Below are positions 1 to 8,400 of a DNA stretch of 64,000 bases, piece after piece. A program made the translations under genes and the position numbers. The notes under the pieces were generated by a model. That model did no database searches, was not told where the DNA came from, and was given only the letters and a program-made list of their open reading frames with translations. The stretch covers positions 2,680,954 to 2,744,953 of the forward strand of contig NZ_CP059900.1 in the NCBI RefSeq assembly GCF_014126825.1, read 5' to 3'. Position 1 is the stretch's first letter. Every line of letters starts with the position of its first letter. The DNA is from Tomitella gaofuii (GTDB lineage Bacteria > Actinomycetota > Actinomycetes > Mycobacteriales > Mycobacteriaceae).

Positions 1-410
1 TCGCAGGCGACGAGCATCGGCGTGTGCCCCTGCTCGCGCAGCCACACCGCCAGCTTTCCGGCCAGCGTGGTCTTGCCCGCGCCCTGCAGGCCCGCGAGCA
101 TGATCACCGTGGGCGGCGTCTTCGCGAGGTTCAGCCGCCGGGTCTCGCCGCCGAGGATGCCGATGAGCTCCTCGTTGACGATCTTGACCACTTGCTGCGC
201 CGGATTGAGCGCACCGGAGACCTCCGCCCCTTTGGCGCGTTCCTTGATGTTCTTGATGAACTCACGGACCACGGGGAGTGCGACGTCGGCCTCGAGCAGG
301 GCCAGGCGGATCTCGCGGCAGGTGGCGTCGATATCGGCGGGCGACAGCTTGCCCTTGCCGCGCAGGTCCTTGAGCGACGAGGTGAGTCTGTCGGAGAGGG
401 ATTCGAACAC
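1..410 (-). CDS. ffh: Signal recognition particle GTPase Ffh (N-terminal part)
   Basis: This is the protein component of the signal recognition particle, which binds signal peptides of nascent membrane proteins and hands them to FtsY. The reading frame starts with GTG at 410 and runs off the left edge, so only about 136 residues are visible. They begin VFESLSDRLTSSLKDLRGKG, the typical N domain, and reach the G1 P-loop GLQGAGKTT. The methionine-rich M domain lies outside the window. It is the last visible gene of the ftsY-amtB-glnK-ffh run. In mycobacteria and corynebacteria glnD usually lies between glnK and ffh; here only about 180 noncoding bases separate them. The start choice is supported by family alignment from memory rather than by a strong ribosome binding site. 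Confidence 0.95.
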   Translation of the reverse strand, partial: MFESLSDRLTSSLKDLRGKGKLSPADIDATCREIRLALLEADVALPVVREFIKNIKERAKGAEVSGALNPAQQVVKIVNEELIGILGGETRRLNLAKTPPTVIMLAGLQGAGKTTLAGKLAVWLREQGHTPMLVAC

Positions 411-446
411 CGGTTGCGCTCCCGTTCGCTTGCTCTGGTGGTGTAT

Positions 447-478
447 CGGGGTGCCGCACGCAGGACTGCGGCACCCCG
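447..478 (-). terminator. Hairpin between glnK and ffh
   Basis: A perfect 12-bp stem (447-458 with 467-478) encloses an 8-base loop. It lies about 110 bases after the glnK stop and just before ffh. There is no U run, so it is either a U-less terminator for amtB-glnK or a structure in the ffh leader. Confidence 0.55.
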
Positions 479-550
479 ACAGCCTAGCGAGTGCGCCGCC
501 ACCGCCGCGCGGGCGCACCGCGCGGGCCCGGAAGTACACCCCCCAGCGGA

Positions 551-593
551 ATCACACGGCCGGGCGGGATCACACGGCCGGGCGGGATCACAC
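551..593. repeat. 18-bp tandem repeat at the glnK stop codon
   Basis: The 18-base unit ATCACACGGCCGGGCGGG occurs at 551-568 and again at 569-586, followed by the first seven bases of a third copy that overlap the glnK stop. Read on the minus strand, each copy carries a TGA in the glnK frame. This looks like recent slippage duplication of the gene end. Confidence 0.85.
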
Positions 594-941
594 CGCGTCC
601 GCGCCCAGCTCCCCGGTGCGCACCCGCACCACCTGCTCGACCCGGGTCACCCACACCTTGCCGTCGCCGACCCGGCCGACGTCGCCGTCACCGGACCGGG
701 CCGCCGCGACGAGCGCGGCGACCACCGCGTCGACGGCGGTATCGGCGACGACCACCTCCACCTTGGCCTTCGTGTGCATGTCCACCGCGAACTCGCTGCC
801 GCGGTAGAGCTCGGTGTGCCCCTTCTGCCGGCCGCGGCCCCGCACTTCGGTCACCGTCATCCCGTGCACCCCCGCGGCACTCAGCGCCGCCTCGACCTCA
901 TCGAGCGCCACGGGGCGGATGATTGCGGTCACGAGCTTCAC
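588..941 (-). CDS. glnK: PII signal transduction protein GlnK with Phe at position 51
   Basis: PII proteins sense 2-oxoglutarate, ATP and ADP and gate the ammonium channel AmtB. The GTG start at 941 is preceded by an AAGGAG site and gives 117 residues beginning VKLVTAIIRP. Family features include GMTVTEVRG, GRQKGHTELYRGSE and the C-terminal RTGELGADA. Two things are odd. Position 51 in the T-loop, the tyrosine uridylylated or adenylylated by GlnD in most homologues, is Phe (codon at 789-791), while Tyr46 is kept. The B-loop region reads SGDGDVGRVGDGKV, about five residues longer than the usual TGKIGDGKV, which accounts for 117 rather than 112 residues. It lies 101 bases downstream of amtB, but glnD is not next to it. 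Covalent modification at the standard site therefore looks lost. Confidence 0.95.
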   Translation of the reverse strand: MKLVTAIIRPVALDEVEAALSAAGVHGMTVTEVRGRGRQKGHTELYRGSEFAVDMHTKAKVEVVVADTAVDAVVAALVAAARSGDGDVGRVGDGKVWVTRVEQVVRVRTGELGADAV

Positions 942-1042
942 GTGGACTCCTTCGTCGTGGCCCCAGGTCAGGGGTTCCGGAGGCGCCGAGGATACCGTCG
1001 CGACGACCGCCGCCCGACGCAGCGGCACCGCCGGCGAGTGCC

Positions 1043-2530
1043 TCACGACGGCCCGCGCCCGCCACCGGTCACCGCATACTCACGATCCTGCCCCGCTGCG
1101 GCCGGATCGGCACCCCGGACGCCGGACTCCGCGGCGGAATGGTCGATTCCGGCGTGCCCGGGGCTTGGCACCTGCCGGCCGGCGGTGCGGCCCCAGTCGT
1201 AGGCGGACTCGGCGTGCTGGCTCAGATCGATCCCGGCGATCTCGTCCTCCGGGTCCACCCGCAGCCCTATGCATGCCCGCACCGCCAGGGCGATCACCGT
1301 CGTCACGACGGCGGCGTAGACCATCACCGCCGCGGCTCCCACGGCCTGCCGCCACAACTGGTCGGCCCCGCCGCCGTAGAACAACCCGTCCACGCCGGTG
1401 GGCGCGGCGGACGTGGCGAACAGCCCCACCAACAGCGTCCCGATGAGCCCGCCGACCAGGTGCACACCGACCACGTCGAGCGAATCGTCGTAGCCGAGGC
1501 GGAACTTGACCCCTACCGCCAGGGCGCAGGCCGCACCCGAGACCACGCCGATCACCAACGCCCCCACCACGTCGACCGACGCGCACGCGGGGGTGATGCC
1601 CACCAGGCCCGCGACGACCCCGGAGGCCGCGCCCAGCGTGGTGTGGTGGCCGTCCCGGATGCGCTCGACCACCAGCCAGGCGAGCATGCCGGCGCACGCC
1701 GCCACGATCGTCATCACCAGCACCGACGCCGCCGCGCCGTCGGCCGCCAGCGCGGACCCGGAGTTGAACCCGATCCACCCGAACCACAGCAGCGCCACGC
1801 CGATCATCACCAGCGTCAGGTTGTGCGGCCGCGACGGGTGGGTACGCCACCCCCGGCGCACGCCCAGCACCGTCGCGAGCACCAGCGCCGCCACGCCGGC
1901 GTTGATGTGCACCGCGGTGCCGCCGGCGAAGTCGATGGCGTGCAGGTCCGAGATGATCCAGCCGCCCTCCCCTGACACGAGCCCGTCCGCGGCGAACACC
2001 CAGTGCGCCACCGGGAAGTACACCAGCACGGCCCAGATCCCCGCGAACACCAACCACGCGGAGAACTTCATCCGGTCCGCGACGGCCCCGGAGATCAGCG
2101 CCACCGTGATAGAGGCGAACATGAGCTGGAAGATCACGAAGGCCGCAGCCGGGATGGTGCCCACCAGCGGGGCGTCGCCCGCGCCCTCGGGGAGGATGCC
2201 GCCGAGCGCGGCGAAGTCGAGCGGGTCGCCGATGACTCCGCCGACCGAATCGCCGAACACCGCCGAGAAGCCGAACAGCACCCAGAGCACCCCGACGACA
2301 CCGAGCGCGCTGAAGCTCATCATGATCATGTTCAGCACGCTGCGCGCCCGCACCATGCCGCCGTAGAAGAACGCGAGCCCCGGCGTCATGAGCATGACCA
2401 GTCCCGCACTGATCAGCACCCACGCCGTGTTCCCCGCGTCCGGCGACCCCGCGCCGACCGCCTGCAGCACGACCCCGTCCGGGGCGACCGCCTCCCACAC
2501 CGATCCCGTCATCACCGACACGCGGACCAC
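1043..2530 (-). CDS. amtB: Ammonium transporter AmtB
   Basis: This is an integral membrane ammonium channel of the Amt/Rh family, about 495 residues with eleven predicted membrane segments. Conserved elements are visible: TPGLAFFYGGMVR in the first helix, GGTAVHINAG with the first pore histidine, WFGWIGFNSGSA, and DVVGVHLVGG with the second pore histidine. The cytoplasmic tail after GLRVDPEDEIAGIDLSQHAES is long and Gly/Pro-rich. A GTG start at 2530 is used here; the ATG at 2512 is an alternative. It sits directly upstream of glnK, the usual channel and regulator pair. The upstream gap contains an OmpR-type direct repeat compatible with GlnR control. Confidence 0.95.
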   Translation of the reverse strand: MVRVSVMTGSVWEAVAPDGVVLQAVGAGSPDAGNTAWVLISAGLVMLMTPGLAFFYGGMVRARSVLNMIMMSFSALGVVGVLWVLFGFSAVFGDSVGGVIGDPLDFAALGGILPEGAGDAPLVGTIPAAAFVIFQLMFASITVALISGAVADRMKFSAWLVFAGIWAVLVYFPVAHWVFAADGLVSGEGGWIISDLHAIDFAGGTAVHINAGVAALVLATVLGVRRGWRTHPSRPHNLTLVMIGVALLWFGWIGFNSGSALAADGAAASVLVMTIVAACAGMLAWLVVERIRDGHHTTLGAASGVVAGLVGITPACASVDVVGALVIGVVSGAACALAVGVKFRLGYDDSLDVVGVHLVGGLIGTLLVGLFATSAAPTGVDGLFYGGGADQLWRQAVGAAAVMVYAAVVTTVIALAVRACIGLRVDPEDEIAGIDLSQHAESAYDWGRTAGRQVPSPGHAGIDHSAAESGVRGADPAAAGQDREYAVTGGGRGPS

Positions 2531-2642
2531 CGTCCCTCCCGGCCGGGACCGCGCCCGGCCGTGTCATGCGGAGGGGCCTGCCGCGGAATGCGCCACCGGC
2601 TACCGCAGGACGACCCCGACCCTCTTCTCCGTCGGGAACCAT

Positions 2643-2672
2643 CCTGCGCAACCCGTGTTACGGGTTCGCAGG
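2643..2672. promoter_or_regulatory. Palindrome between ftsY and amtB
   Basis: An almost perfect inverted repeat (left arm CCTGCGCAACCCGT, right arm ACGGGTTCGCAGG, one bulged base) lies in the 207-base gap upstream of amtB and 65 bases past the ftsY stop. It could terminate ftsY or serve as an operator for amtB-glnK. The sequence alone does not decide. Confidence 0.5.
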
Positions 2673-2710
2673 CACGATGTTGCGGCTGTGCAAACTCTGC
2701 GGCCCGCCGT

Positions 2711-2726
2711 GTTACGCCGATGTGAC
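2711..2726 (-). promoter_or_regulatory. Candidate GlnR-type site upstream of amtB
   Basis: On the minus strand the sequence is GTCAC-N6-GTAAC. This fits the GTnAC-N6-GnAAC half-site pair described for GlnR, the OmpR-family nitrogen regulator of actinobacteria. It lies about 180 bases upstream of amtB, where such control is expected. One site of this length can arise by chance. Confidence 0.4.
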
Positions 2727-2737
2727 GCGCGGTCGGG

Positions 2738-4300
2738 TCACCCCAGCAGCGCGTCCACGAACGCGCCCGGGTCGAAGGGCGCGAGGTCGTCGGGCCCCTC
2801 CCCCAGGCCGACGAGCTTGACCGGCACGCCCAGCTCGTGCTGCACCTGGAACACGATGCCGCCCTTCGCCGTGCCGTCGAGCTTGGTCAGCACGACGCCG
2901 GTGATGTCGACGACCTCCGCGAACACCCGGGCCTGCGTGAGCCCGTTCTGCCCCACCGTGGCGTCGAGCACCAGCAGCACCTCGTCCACCGGCGCCTTCT
3001 TCTCGACGACACGCTTGACCTTGCCGAGCTCGTCCATCAGGCCGGTCTTCGTGTGCAGCCGGCCCGCGGTGTCCACCAGCACCGCGTCGACGCCCTGCTC
3101 GATGCCGCGCGCCACCGCGTCGAAGGCCACCGCGGCCGGGTCGCCGCCCTCCTTGCCGCGGACCACCTCGGCACCGACCCTGTCGGCCCAGGTCTCGAGC
3201 TGGTCGGCGGCAGCGGCGCGGAACGTGTCCGCCGCGCCGAGCAGGATGCGCCGGCCGTCCGCGACGAGTACCCGCGCGAGCTTGCCGGTCGTCGTGGTCT
3301 TGCCGGTGCCGTTGACGCCGACGACCAGCAGCACCGCGGGGCTTCCGCTGTGCGGCAGCGCGCGCACCGACCGCGCGTTGGCGGTCTGGAGCTCGTCCAC
3401 CAGGACCTCACGCAACAGCGCGCGCGCCTGGTCCTCCGTCCGTACCGACCGGGTCGCCATCTGGTCGCGCAGCCGCGTGACGATCTTGTCCGTGGTGGCG
3501 GCGCCGAGGTCGGCGATGATGAGCGTGTCCTCGACCTCTTCCCAGGCGTCCTCGTCCAGGTCGCCGCCGCCGAGCAACCCGAGCAGCGACTTGCCCACCG
3601 CCGATTGCGAGCGGGACAGGCGGCCGCGCAGGCGCTCGAGCCTGCCATCGGTGGGCGCGATCTCCTCCGCGGGCGCCGCAGGGGCTGCGGGCGCTGCCGG
3701 GGCCTCGGGCGCGGCAAGGGGCTCGGGTTCTGCGGGGGCGGCCGGAGTCTCCGGTTCCGCAGTGGGGACGGGCGTCCCCACGGGCGCTTCCGGCTCCGCC
3801 GGCGCTTCCGCCGGCTCAGCGGGGGCCTCGGGCTCTGCGGGGGCGGTCGTCGCACCGTCCACCGGCGGTGCGGTCTCCACCGGCGGTGCGGTCTCCGCCG
3901 ACGGTGCTGTCTCCTCCGCGGGGGCCGCGGGTCCTTCAGGGACAGCAGGCTCTACAGGAGCGGCAGGCGTAGCGGAAGCAGTCGACGCGGCCGGGGCGGC
4001 AGACTCCGGCGGAACGACCGGCGCCGGCGACTCCGGCCGCGCGGCGGGTTCCGGTTCCCGCGGACGCTCGGGCGCCGCGACGCCACCGGAACCCCCTGAG
4101 CCCTCGCTGAAGTCGAACCCGGACGAGGTCGTATACCCCCCGGGCTTCGCCTTGCGCTCCTCGATCCCGGCTTCCGGCGGCGGGGTGAAGCTGATCTGCC
4201 GGCGCCGGTAAAGCACCGCCCCGGCGACGATGGCGATGACGACCAGCGCCGCCACGACTGCGATGACGATCCAGAGTGCTGAGTTCACGCGCCCCATCAT
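2738..4300 (-). CDS. ftsY: Signal recognition particle receptor FtsY
   Basis: FtsY is the membrane receptor for Ffh and a SIMIBI-class GTPase. The 520-residue protein starts with an N-terminal membrane segment (about residues 8-31) followed by RRRQ. A roughly 190-residue Pro/Ala/Glu-rich disordered linker follows, and then the NG domain. GTPase motifs include VVGVNGTGKTTT (P-loop), LLGAADTFRAAA, VLVDTAGR and LTKLDGTAKGG. The acidic linker is long and contains near-repeats such as ETAPPVETAPPVDG. It lies at the head of the amtB-glnK-ffh run, and smc is the next conserved minus-strand gene upstream, as in mycobacteria. Confidence 0.96.
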   Translation of the reverse strand: MMGRVNSALWIVIAVVAALVVIAIVAGAVLYRRRQISFTPPPEAGIEERKAKPGGYTTSSGFDFSEGSGGSGGVAAPERPREPEPAARPESPAPVVPPESAAPAASTASATPAAPVEPAVPEGPAAPAEETAPSAETAPPVETAPPVDGATTAPAEPEAPAEPAEAPAEPEAPVGTPVPTAEPETPAAPAEPEPLAAPEAPAAPAAPAAPAEEIAPTDGRLERLRGRLSRSQSAVGKSLLGLLGGGDLDEDAWEEVEDTLIIADLGAATTDKIVTRLRDQMATRSVRTEDQARALLREVLVDELQTANARSVRALPHSGSPAVLLVVGVNGTGKTTTTGKLARVLVADGRRILLGAADTFRAAAADQLETWADRVGAEVVRGKEGGDPAAVAFDAVARGIEQGVDAVLVDTAGRLHTKTGLMDELGKVKRVVEKKAPVDEVLLVLDATVGQNGLTQARVFAEVVDITGVVLTKLDGTAKGGIVFQVQHELGVPVKLVGLGEGPDDLAPFDPGAFVDALLG

Positions 4301-4375
4301 CGCAGCAGCCCCGGACCGGCGTCACATCCGCTCCGGCGCCCCGGCGCTCGCGCACGCACCCGACGCACCGACCTC

Positions 4376-4411
4376 TTGCATGCGACATTCGGTCACACTA
4401 AACTGTGTGAC
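4376..4411 (+). promoter_or_regulatory. Promoter and overlapping operator of the diiron oxygenase gene
   Basis: A -35 box TTGCAT (4376-4381) is separated by exactly 17 bases from a -10 box TAAACT (4399-4404). The -10 box is the spacer of a palindrome with arms GTCACAC (4392-4398) and GTGTGAC (4405-4411). A repressor bound there, for example of the TetR family, would block the promoter. No regulator gene lies next to it. Confidence 0.7.
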
Positions 4412-4448
4412 ACAGGTAACGTTCCATCGATCGTTTCGGGAGGCCGGC

Positions 4449-5468
4449 ATGACTCTCCAGGATTCCGACACCGCGGTGGACCGCCGCGCCGCCCACGCCC
4501 CCGGCCTGTCGCCGCAGTACCGGCGGATGCTGCGCACCCTTTCGGAGGGGTCGGTGGACAAGCATTTCCACCCGTACCTCGACATCGACTGGGACAACCC
4601 CGCCCTGGCGCTCGACCCGCAGGATCCGCGCTGGGTCCTCTCGCCTGCGATCGACCCGCTGGGCGCCACACAGTGGTACCAGGACCAGCCGCTGGACAGC
4701 CGGATCGCCATGGGCCGCTGGCGCCAGGCCAATGCGATCAAGGTCGGCGCATCGTTCGAGACCATCCTCATCCGCGGCCTCATGCATTACGTGACGGCAC
4801 TGCCGAACAACTCGCCGGAGTTCCGCTACTGCCTCCACGAGATGACCGAGGAGTGCAACCACATCCAGATGTTCCAGGAACTCGTCAACCGCATCGGGGT
4901 CGACGTGCCCGGAATGCGGCCGGCGTTCCGGCGCGCGTCCCCGTTCATCGGCCTGGCCGGCGGATACGCCTACGTGGTCCTGTTCATCGGCATCCTCGGC
5001 GGCGAGGAGCCCATCGACCACTACCAGAAGTCCCTGCTGCGCCACGACGTCGAACTGCCGCCGCTGGTCCAGCGGGTCATGCAGATCCACATCGCCGAGG
5101 AGGCGCGGCACATCTCCTTCGCCGGCGATTTCCTGCGGACGCACATGCCCCGCATGGGCCGGGCGTCACGGGCCACGTGCTCGGTGCTCTTCCCCGTGGC
5201 GATGCGGTGGCTGGCCGGCGAGATCATGACCCCGCCCAAGGAGTTCGCCCGCAGGTTCGACATCCCCGACGCGGTCATCCGCGAGGCGTTCTGGGACAGT
5301 CCGCGTTCGCGTCAGATCATGTCCGGCTACTTCGACGACATGCGCACGCTGGCCGACGAGCTGGGCCTGATGAACCCGGTCTCCCGGCGGCTGTGGCGCG
5401 GGCTGGGGATCGACGGCCGCCGCGCCCGGTACCGCGGCGAGCCCGACCGGCGCGACTTCGCCGCCTGA
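4449..5468 (+). CDS. AurF-like diiron oxygenase
   Basis: A 339-residue protein of the p-aminobenzoate N-oxygenase (AurF) family, which uses a non-heme diiron centre in a helical bundle to oxidise aromatic amines and other substrates. All expected iron ligands are present: Glu104 (SFETIL), Glu135 and His138 (EECNH), Glu187 (GEEPIDH), His214, and Glu218 and His221 (EEARH). The ATG at 4449 follows a GGGAGG site. The gene is on the plus strand inside a minus-strand block (ftsY-smc) that is contiguous in related genomes, so it is an insertion. It has its own promoter and palindromic operator. The substrate cannot be told. Many actinobacterial members of this family have no assigned function. Confidence 0.85.
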   Translation: MTLQDSDTAVDRRAAHAPGLSPQYRRMLRTLSEGSVDKHFHPYLDIDWDNPALALDPQDPRWVLSPAIDPLGATQWYQDQPLDSRIAMGRWRQANAIKVGASFETILIRGLMHYVTALPNNSPEFRYCLHEMTEECNHIQMFQELVNRIGVDVPGMRPAFRRASPFIGLAGGYAYVVLFIGILGGEEPIDHYQKSLLRHDVELPPLVQRVMQIHIAEEARHISFAGDFLRTHMPRMGRASRATCSVLFPVAMRWLAGEIMTPPKEFARRFDIPDAVIREAFWDSPRSRQIMSGYFDDMRTLADELGLMNPVSRRLWRGLGIDGRRARYRGEPDRRDFAA

Positions 5469-5498
5469 CCGCACGCCACCGGCGACGGTCCGGGCTGC

Positions 5499-8400
5499 TC
5501 ACTCGGTCACGGGCACGTCACCCAGGTCCACCCCGCGCATGCGCTGGGAGATGACCTGGGTGATGCCGTCGCCGCGCATGCTCACCCCGTACAGGGCGTC
5601 CGCGATCTCCATCGTGGACTTCTGGTGCGTGATGACGATGAGCTGCGAACGCTCGCGCAGCTGCGTGAACAGGCTGATCAGGCGGTTCAGGTTGACCTCG
5701 TCGAGGGCGGCCTCCACCTCGTCCATCACGTAGAACGGCGACGGACGTGCACGGAAGATCGCGACGAGCATGGCCACCGCGGTGAGCGACTTCTCCCCGC
5801 CGGAGAGCAGCGACAGCCGTTTGACCTTCTTGCCCGGCGGGCGCGCTTCCACCTCCACGCCGGTGGTGAGCATGTCCTCCGGGTCGGTGAGCACCAGGCG
5901 CCCCTCGCCCCCGGGGAACAACGTGGCGAACACGTCGACGAACTCGCGCTCCACGTCCGCGTAGGCGTCGGTGAACACCTGCAGGATGCGCGCGTCCACT
6001 TCGTCGACCACGTCGAGCAGATCCTGGCGCGCCTTCTTCACGTCCTCGAGCTGCGTGGCGAGGAAGTTGTAGCGCTCCTCCATGGCCGCGAACTCTTCGA
6101 GCGCGAGCGGGTTCACCTTGCCGAGAGTGCGCAGGTCCTTCTCCGCCTGCTTGGCCCGGCGCATCTGGGTGGCACGGTCGAACGGCATCGGCGCCGGCGC
6201 CACCACCTGTTCGCCCCGCTCCCGCGCCTGCTCGTACTCGGAGATCTCGAGCTCGGACGGCGGCAGCGGAACGTGCGGGCCGTACTCGGACACCAAGTCG
6301 TCCGGTGCCATGCCGTTCTGTTCGAGGATCTGCTCCTCAAGCTGTTCGATGCGCAGTGCGATCTTCGCCCGCGCCATCTCGTCGCGGTGCGCCGCGTCGG
6401 TGAGCGTGTGCAGCGTCTGCGTCAGCTCCGTCACGCGCCCCCGTGTCTCACGCACGCGCTCGGACCGCTCGACGCGCTGCGACTCCAGGCCGTCGCGCTC
6501 CTGCGCGGCCCACGACACCTCCGCCGCGAGCCGCTCCGCGACCACCGCCCCCGTCTCGGAGACCGCTGTGGCGACGCCGGCAGCCCGCCGGCGCCGCAGC
6601 CGGGCCCGTTCGGCCCGTTCCCGCGCCTGACGTTCGGCCGCCGCCGCGCGACGCAACCCGTCGGCCCGCCCGCGCAACGCCGCCGCACGCTCTTCCGCGG
6701 TCCGCAGCCCCAACCGGGCCTCCACCTCCACCGCGCGCGCCTCCGATACCGCGGCCACCGCATCGTCCCGCGCCTCGGCCAGCGCGCCGTCGCCCGCCTC
6801 CTGCTCATCGTCACCGGGAACGGACTGTTCGGCAAGGCGCAGCCGTTCCTCCAGCCCGGTCAGCGCGGCGACCGTCTCCTCGCGGCCCGCCTCGGCCTCC
6901 TGCCGCTGCGTGCTCAGGCGTCCGTGCTCGGCCTCCGCGGCGCGGGCCGCCTGCCCGAGCCGGCCGAGCTGTTCATACACCGCCGACATGGACGCGTCCG
7001 ACTCCGTCAGGGCCGCGAGCGTCACCTCGGCGTTCTCGCGCCGCACATCCGCCTCGGCCACCGCCCCGGCCAGCGCTGCGGCGAGCTCCTCGGCGCGCGC
7101 GGACGCGGCCACCGCGGCCTCGCCCGCCTCGTCCACCGCAGCCTGCACCTCGAGCATGCTCGTGGCCGACTCCGAGCCGCCCACCGACCAGCCGTGGCCC
7201 ACCAGGTCGCCGTCGCGCGTGGCGACGCGCACCGCCGGCGACGCCTCGACCGTGCAGAAGGCCGCCGCCAGATCGTCGGCGACCGCCACCCGCGACAGCA
7301 GCGACCGCACCGCCGCGCCCAGGTCGCCGTCGACGTCCACCAGGGTCTCCGCCCACACCGCGCCCCCTGCGAGCGCGCCGTCGTCGGGCCCCGGGCCAGG
7401 CCCGGCCTGCGCCGGACCGGCGGCCGGGGTGATGAACGCGGCCCTGCCCGCCTCGCCTTCCTTGAGCGCCGCGATGGCGCCTGCCGCCGCGTCCGCGTCG
7501 CGCATCGCCACCGCTTCCGCCGCGGGTCCGAGCGCCGCAGCGACGGCCCGCTCGTACCCGGCCCGCACGCGCATGCGCTCTGCGAGCCTGCCCACCACGC
7601 CGTCGGCGGACCCCTGCGCGGCATCGGCCGCGTCGGTGGTGGCGGCCGCGTCGCCCGCGGCGTCACCGAGACCCGCCCGCTCGAGCACCCATGCGGCGCC
7701 GTCCTTGCGCGCCAGGCTCATTTCCAGGGCCTCGATGCGGGCGCGCAGCGAGACCACCTTCTGCTCCGCCTCCCGCTCGCCGGCGCGCAGCTCGGCCACC
7801 CGCGCCTCGGCCGCCTCATACTCCGCGGCGGCGTGCTCGTGCCGCTCGTCCAGGGCGGCCTCGTCGCCCTCCAGCTCGTCGGCCTGCGCCTGCGCCTGCG
7901 CGAACTCGTCGTGCGCCGCGGCGGCGCGCTCCTGCGCCTGCACCATCGCCTCGGTGAGGCGCGTCACCTCCGCGTCCACCGATTCCGTGCGGCTGCGCAG
8001 CGTGTTCACCTCGCCCACCAGGCGCGCGAGCCCCTCCCGCCGGTCGGCCACCGCCCGCACCGCCGCCACGTGGGCGCGCTCTGCCTCCGCGGCGACCTGT
8101 TCGCGCTCGTCCAGCGCCTCCCGCGCCGCGGCGAGCACGTCTGCCGCCGATTCCACCGACTGCTCCAGCTCGGCCTCCTCCTCGGCCGCTCGCTCCGCCT
8201 GCCGGTCGAGCTCGTCGGGGTCGCGTCCCGGTGCGTCCTGCTGTTCCGTAGCGAGAGTGGCCGCGCGATCGTGTGCGATCCGGACGGTGGCGTCGACCCG
8301 CTCCGCCAGCGCCGACAGGCGGAACCAGGCTTGCTGTGCCGCCTTCGCCTCCGGCTCCAGACGGGCGAGCGCCTCCTCGTCCTCCGCGAGCCGCCCGGCG

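Follow-up and report, generated by a model that had tools for sequence, protein, structure and literature searches.

Loss of glnD and later replacement of Tyr51 in the GlnK of Tomitella gaofuii, with faster T-loop change in glnD-less relatives

The 64,000-nucleotide stretch of the Tomitella gaofuii genome analysed here (the window) encodes an ammonium channel, AmtB, beside a PII protein, GlnK, in which Phe occupies the position of the adenylylated Tyr51. From the letters alone it had been proposed that loss of glnD and the Tyr51Phe replacement, taken together, mean that covalent PII modification has been abandoned and that GlnK acts only by ligand binding (the original prediction). The locus therefore raises the question of whether GlnK has indeed lost its modifier and, if so, in what order the changes came and what the protein is kept for.

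The genes ftsY, amtB, glnK and ffh follow one another in this order on the minus strand (Table 1). As had been claimed, the amtB-glnK pair leads directly into ffh, with a 177 bp spacer versus 2.09-5.2 kb between glnK and ffh in 18 glnD-bearing loci. AmtB, encoded 101 bp from glnK, is the likely target of this GlnK, and the linkage holds in four of the five genomes of the genus. The channel extends about 50 residues past its conserved transporter domain (the Pfam match ends at residue 444 of 495), and the tail of AmtB faces the cytoplasm, from which GlnK docks. Upstream of amtB is a GlnR-like box, the motif of which we take to be GTCAC-N6-GTAAC; the pattern as used has no match in the genus members G001 or G002. 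The GlnR gene is present in the T. gaofuii genome (G000), adjoining mshD (Pfam GlnR_1st, 109 bits). An inverted repeat between glnK and ffh is possibly the operon's terminator, and Rfam at its gathering threshold gave no match in window positions 1-5500. The 18-bp repeat that enters the glnK stop codon was found by eye and was not listed by the automated repeat search.

Table 1. Features of the ftsY-amtB-glnK-ffh locus, in window coordinates
Feature	Position	Strand	Basis or remark
ffh, 5' part within the window, start at 410	1-410	minus	
glnK-ffh spacer, 177 bp, place of glnD in relatives	411-587		
Perfect 13-bp inverted repeat, 8-nt loop, no T-run	446-479		
18-bp unit (atcacacggccgggcggg), two tandem copies and a partial third entering the glnK stop codon	551-593		by eye
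glnK, PII protein, 117 aa, GTG start	588-941	minus	direct reading
B-loop insertion, 5 residues (GDGDV), nucleotide site	678-692	minus	common to 5/5 genus members
GlnK residues 55-58, MHTK; Pro57 replaced, Lys58 retained	768-779	minus	
GlnK codon 51, TTC (Phe), adenylylated Tyr51 replaced	789-791	minus	direct reading and alignment
GlnK codon 36, Arg, immediately before the T-loop; most relatives Phe/Tyr	834-836	minus	
GlnK codon 11, GTG (Val), Phe11 replaced	909-911	minus	direct reading and alignment
AmtB C-terminal extension	1043-1200		
amtB, ammonium channel	1043-2530	minus	PF00909 E 2.8e-122; TIGR00836 452 bits
GlnR-like box GTCAC-N6-GTAAC, upstream of amtB	2711-2726	minus	pattern also in G003, G004
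ftsY, upstream neighbour of amtB	2738-4300	minus	

GlnK scored 99.2 bits against the P-II profile PF00543 (cut-off 25) and is the sole match in the 4.35 Mb genome, which is closed in one contig and 99% complete. Reading the minus strand confirmed both the Phe codon in place of Tyr51 and the other T-loop differences that had been pointed out, Arg36 and the sequence VDMHTK at residues 53-58. The B-loop is longer than usual: five extra residues lengthen the stretch from Ser83 to the GDGK motif in all five genus members, where the usual PII motif, as we take it, is [ST]-x3-G-D-G-K, a common but non-defining feature of the family, and membership was decided by profile and fold. Lying at the nucleotide site, the insertion could have altered ligand binding. 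When 393 genomes of the class were searched with a profile of the genus, a lengthened B-loop was seen in none of the matches listed outside it, lengths being judged by eye. The residues that we take to form the PII effector site (T29, G35, G37, Q39, K58, G87-K90, R101 and R103) are all present in the window GlnK. Part of this list is also given for C. glutamicum GlnK (PMC7919409).

An AlphaFold2 model of the window GlnK adopts the PII fold (mean pLDDT 80.9), and the 50 Foldseek matches listed were all PII/GlnK chains. Among the matches listed, M. tuberculosis PII (PDB 3lf0) ranked first in structure and joint first in sequence. Since confidence is low in the T-loop and B-loop regions (block means 51-70), the model is uninformative on the B-loop insertion. 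The alignment for the fold drew on a GlnK search of named genomes, in which the matches listed were mostly from proteobacteria and included no genus member.

The original prediction called for a search of the whole genome for GlnD and a second PII, and neither was found (TIGR01693, PF00543). TIGR01693 gave three weak matches in T. gaofuii, at 26.9-27.7 bits versus a cut-off of 519. They were rejected as GlnE (PRK14109, 1394 bits), the CCA tRNA nucleotidyltransferase (812 bits) and RelA/SpoT (906 bits). Both marks of a GlnD-modified PII are thus missing, as GlnK has Phe51 and a GlnD above the cut-off was found in none of the five genus genomes, each of which has one PII. As far as sequence can speak to the matter, neither a glnD at another site nor an additional PII stands against the prediction, and the observation of glnD absence together with a Phe51 GlnK is confirmed. 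In all five genus members glnK adjoins ffh, the two matches lying 89-180 bp apart. A tblastn search with two GlnDs at E <= 1 found no glnD remnant in 17 of 17 glnD-less loci tested, and recovered GlnD in both glnD-bearing loci included; at E 1e-8, none was found in all 22 glnD-less loci.

To place the changes in order, we used an Ffh+FtsY tree of 40 genomes, some nodes of which are weak (43-66%). Within the genus, residue 51 is Phe in G000, G003 and G004 and Tyr in G001 and G002, and the tree places the origin of Phe51 within it. As glnD loss is common to all five members, it is therefore the earlier event and Phe51 the later one. The idea that the two changes mark an abandoned PII modification is supported by these data, but their simultaneity is not, since two of the five glnD-less members still carry Tyr51. 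Tyr51Phe is also one mark among several: all five PIIs have Val11 for Phe11, Arg9 for Lys9 and Ser83 for Thr83, and in all of them Pro57 is replaced and the B-loop insertion is present. Phe11Val, Lys9Arg and the insertion had not been mentioned in the original prediction, and both alignment and tree place the loss of Phe11 before that of Tyr51. In G001, the locus reads ftsY-glnK-ffh with no amtB between (L054, 3685-7346) and the PII has Tyr51; no AmtB (PF00909) was found elsewhere in this 81% complete genome, from which GlnD is also absent.

We then widened the comparison to 401 genomes of the family, calling glnD by TIGR01693 at E <= 1e-40. It was found in 358 genomes. G017, G043 and G046 were counted as glnD-bearing on partial matches, those of G017 and G043 lying at contig ends. 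Among the 43 without it, 23 of which were identified from gaps in the numbering (the total fits, and the locus was checked for nine), a PII is present in 21 and missing from 22. G001 lies outside the 401-genome set and inside the locus comparisons. A Phe51 pattern matched 12 of the 401 genomes, five times in PIIs (G000, G003, G004, G123 and G404, all glnD-less) and seven times in other genes, which were rejected as PII because those loci gave no tblastn PII match at 1e-3. The motif was found in the PII of none of the 358 glnD-bearing genomes, and G327, also glnD-less, has Val51. Tyr51 is thus replaced in six of the 21 glnD-less genomes with a PII (five Phe, one Val) and retained in 15. A Tyr51 pattern matched 376 of 401 genomes, an upper bound for PII because some matches in the genus g3, among those listed, are a repeated non-PII element, and 24 of the 25 non-matching genomes are glnD-less. 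The single glnD-bearing exception, G397 (99% complete, about 260 contigs), has no PII by PF00543 and represents either a modifier without a substrate or an assembly gap. The pairing of Phe51 with glnD absence is not due to chance, with all five genus members lacking glnD and only five Phe51 PIIs in 401 genomes, every one glnD-less. The T-loop comparison that had been proposed for the Mycobacteriales, made here within the family, accordingly places Tyr51 replacement only where glnD is gone.

amtB adjoins glnK in 21 of the 22 glnD-less loci, and 64-216 bp separate glnK from ffh in 19; the gap is longer in G327 and G376, where it holds other genes (an HNH-type gene and wall-anchored-type proteins, by eye), and longest in G036 (6.7 kb, with ftsY inside). 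Four of the 18 glnD-bearing loci, G211 (L223), G356 (L227), G400 (L228) and G273 (L233), have no AmtB match in 15 kb. All are g3 loci (4 of 13 glnD-bearing g3 genomes) that have glnK-glnD without an AmtB match in this span, the reverse of the glnD-less loci; such an arrangement would be in line with modification acting on some other target in these genomes, e.g. AmtR.

We compared 58 PIIs from glnD-bearing genomes (43, with their loci retrieved, from a set of 50 that have a PII, and 15 further) with the 22 glnD-less PIIs, using the best match where a genome has two. K9, F11, G41, H42, E50 and Y51 never vary among the 58 glnD-bearing PIIs and are changed in 7, 8, 7, 10, 7 and 6 of the 22 glnD-less ones, respectively, and P57 varies in 2 of 58 versus 17 of 22. 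These residues were picked by screening every column with 95% conservation or more among the glnD-bearing PIIs, so single p values are uncorrected. Fast evolution of g3 is not the cause, since its 13 glnD-bearing PIIs all retain the six invariant residues (and 11 of 13 retain P57). The B-loop residue Lys85 is likewise retained in 13 of 13 glnD-bearing g3 PIIs versus 3 of 14 glnD-less ones (L052, L053, L211-L213, L216, L218-L220 and L236-L240; Glu in seven), and residue 85 is Arg in all five members of the window's genus; Lys85 may belong to the GlnD-dependent set.

The rates cover 39 genomes, without G236, whose branch of 0.78 points to a faulty Ffh match. With no regain assumed, the tree holds seven separate glnD losses, some resting on weak nodes, and the number of Tyr51 replacements inside g3 is ambiguous under parsimony. 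T-loop change per site and branch length, with the loop set at what we take as its usual limits, residues 37-55, fixed after the residue scan had been seen, was 0.30 with glnD and 1.43 without, about fivefold. The rest of PII changed 1.7-fold faster (1.21 versus 2.02), and part of the effect is therefore not T-loop specific. The contrast between T-loop and remainder gave an odds ratio of 2.84 (p = 3.7e-4), in counts that treat substitutions as independent. It was 2.04 (p = 0.043), a weak contrast, with the large g3 clade dropped, 2.20 (p = 0.016) with part of that clade dropped, 3.19 (p = 8e-5) with the window's genus dropped, 2.42 (p = 0.019) with both dropped and 2.76 (p = 6e-4) with G372 and G095 dropped. 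G082 and G329 are glnD-less, yet show one and no T-loop change, respectively, which fits a recent glnD loss and lends no support of its own. Across the 39 genomes no change was found at T29, G35, G37, Q39, K58, G87, D88, G89, K90, R101 or R103, nor at E44, Y46, R47 and G48 of the tip that plugs AmtB, and the 12 ligand-site positions together show one change.

From the gene content, gene order, residues and rates observed, we infer that GlnK gates AmtB through ligands only and carries no other modification. GlnD-dependent modification, and with it the glutamine input, has probably been lost, with GlnK now responding to ATP, ADP and 2-oxoglutarate. Comparison of the loci shows that the genus ancestor lost glnD from an amtB-glnK-glnD operon, leaving no detectable remnant. 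Judging by the role of GlnD in relatives, this would have removed GlnK adenylylation and the glutamine-sensing arm of PII control. GlnK may have been kept for a modification-free job: in its ADP-bound state, at low 2-oxoglutarate, it would plug AmtB, and on binding Mg-ATP and 2-oxoglutarate it would leave the channel. Residues maintained chiefly for GlnD would then have drifted; by parsimony, Phe11, Lys9 and Pro57 were already replaced in the ancestor of the genus, and Tyr51 changed to Phe afterwards in one sub-clade. The genes for GlnR and GlnE remain, presumably for transcription and, separately, for control of glutamine synthetase.

Published work bears on several of these steps. The unmodifiable Tyr51Ala variant of E. 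coli GlnK continues to associate with AmtB and dissociate from it according to nitrogen status, in a cycle driven by ATP, ADP and 2-oxoglutarate (PMC4274968), and the retained residues and amtB linkage seen here would fit this ligand-driven mode. A mycobacterial PII has been reported to interact with Amt (PMC11001197). In M. tuberculosis, neither the adenylylation of glutamine synthetase nor the transcriptional response to nitrogen is controlled by PII adenylylation (PMC3612183), so GlnR control could persist undisturbed once PII adenylylation is lost. In C. glutamicum, Tyr51Phe resembles a glnK deletion for AmtR control (PMC7919409). Against the reading proposed here stand the glnK without amtB in G001, a genome that is 81% complete, and the 15 of 21 glnD-less PIIs that are still Tyr51.

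GlnK might instead be a relic with little function after glnD loss, its T-loop decaying until the gene is deleted. The 22 of 43 glnD-less family genomes that have no PII would agree with this, as would dN/dS across the Tyr51/Phe51 split of the genus, which is 0.32-0.57 for glnK and 0.17-0.20 for ffh. Inside the Phe51 sub-clade, however, glnK dN/dS is 0.04-0.12, indicating purifying selection, and together with the unchanged ligand-site and AmtB-plug residues and the retention of amtB beside glnK this makes a relic unlikely. Selection for Tyr51Phe, e.g. for a T-loop newly tuned to AmtB or shielded from stray modification, is quite unlikely. Phe, as the most conservative substitution, accounts for five of the six replacements, and in adenylylated C. 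glutamicum GlnK the aromatic residue 51 stacks on Phe11 of the neighbouring chain (PMC7919409); against this, Phe11 was lost before Tyr51 in the genus, one replacement is Val, and other glnD-less lineages have substitutions at the nearby H42 and E50 as well. Covalent control could also have been replaced rather than abandoned, with another enzyme modifying another residue. Tyr46 and several Ser/Thr remain, GlnE is a nucleotidyltransferase relative, and the Phe51 sub-clade has Ser49, which is phosphorylated in some cyanobacterial PIIs (PMC4285133). As the locus holds no candidate enzyme and the actinobacterial literature, in the passages cited, describes adenylylation only, we regard this as very unlikely. 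That a glnD is present and was missed through an assembly gap or divergence is exceedingly improbable, as we found no point in its favour and the closed single-contig genome, the short GlnD-free spacers throughout the genus and the tblastn searches all speak against it.

Ligand-only gating of AmtB after GlnD loss thus remains our preferred reading. The residues that drift once glnD is gone yield predictions, open to experiment, that separate the PII positions needed by GlnD from those needed by AmtB and ligands, and this natural scan of the residues serving GlnD is the useful novelty. In its full form it would assign K9, F11, G41, H42, E50, Y51, P57 and K85 to GlnD, and Q39, E44-Y46-R47-G48 and K58 to ligands and AmtB, with the B-loop of the genus having retuned nucleotide sensing to replace the glutamine input, a combination that we consider doubtful. 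Nitrogen-control gene content varies among corynebacteria. Whereas a review describes glnD as ubiquitous in actinobacteria (PMC4285133), 43 of 401 family genomes are glnD-less through seven losses on the tree, and the role of PII adenylylation in mycobacteria was described as open in 2013 (PMC3612183). Titles and the opening lines of abstracts among the papers listed, mostly outside the subscription literature, contained no description of repeated glnD loss with T-loop decay.

Relative to the actinobacterial GlnK-AmtB-GlnD systems of C. glutamicum, M. smegmatis and S. coelicolor, the locus keeps the same operon order except for glnD, a single PII and the ligand-site residues of GlnK, and it resembles mycobacteria and S. 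coelicolor in the presence of GlnR. It differs from these systems in the missing GlnD, Phe51, Val11 and the five extra B-loop residues. M. tuberculosis PII (3lf0), in contrast to the Phe51 protein with its insertion, has Tyr51 and no B-loop insertion, and M. tuberculosis has a GlnD (PMC3612183), whereas T. gaofuii does not. In unmodified GlnK-AmtB pairs, in organisms without PII modification or with E. coli Tyr51Ala, AmtB has been proposed to be gated by ATP, ADP and 2-oxoglutarate alone (PMC4274968), as we suggest here; unlike those pairs, the one in Tomitella would represent a secondary loss within a PII-modifying lineage, in which the order of the changes is visible.
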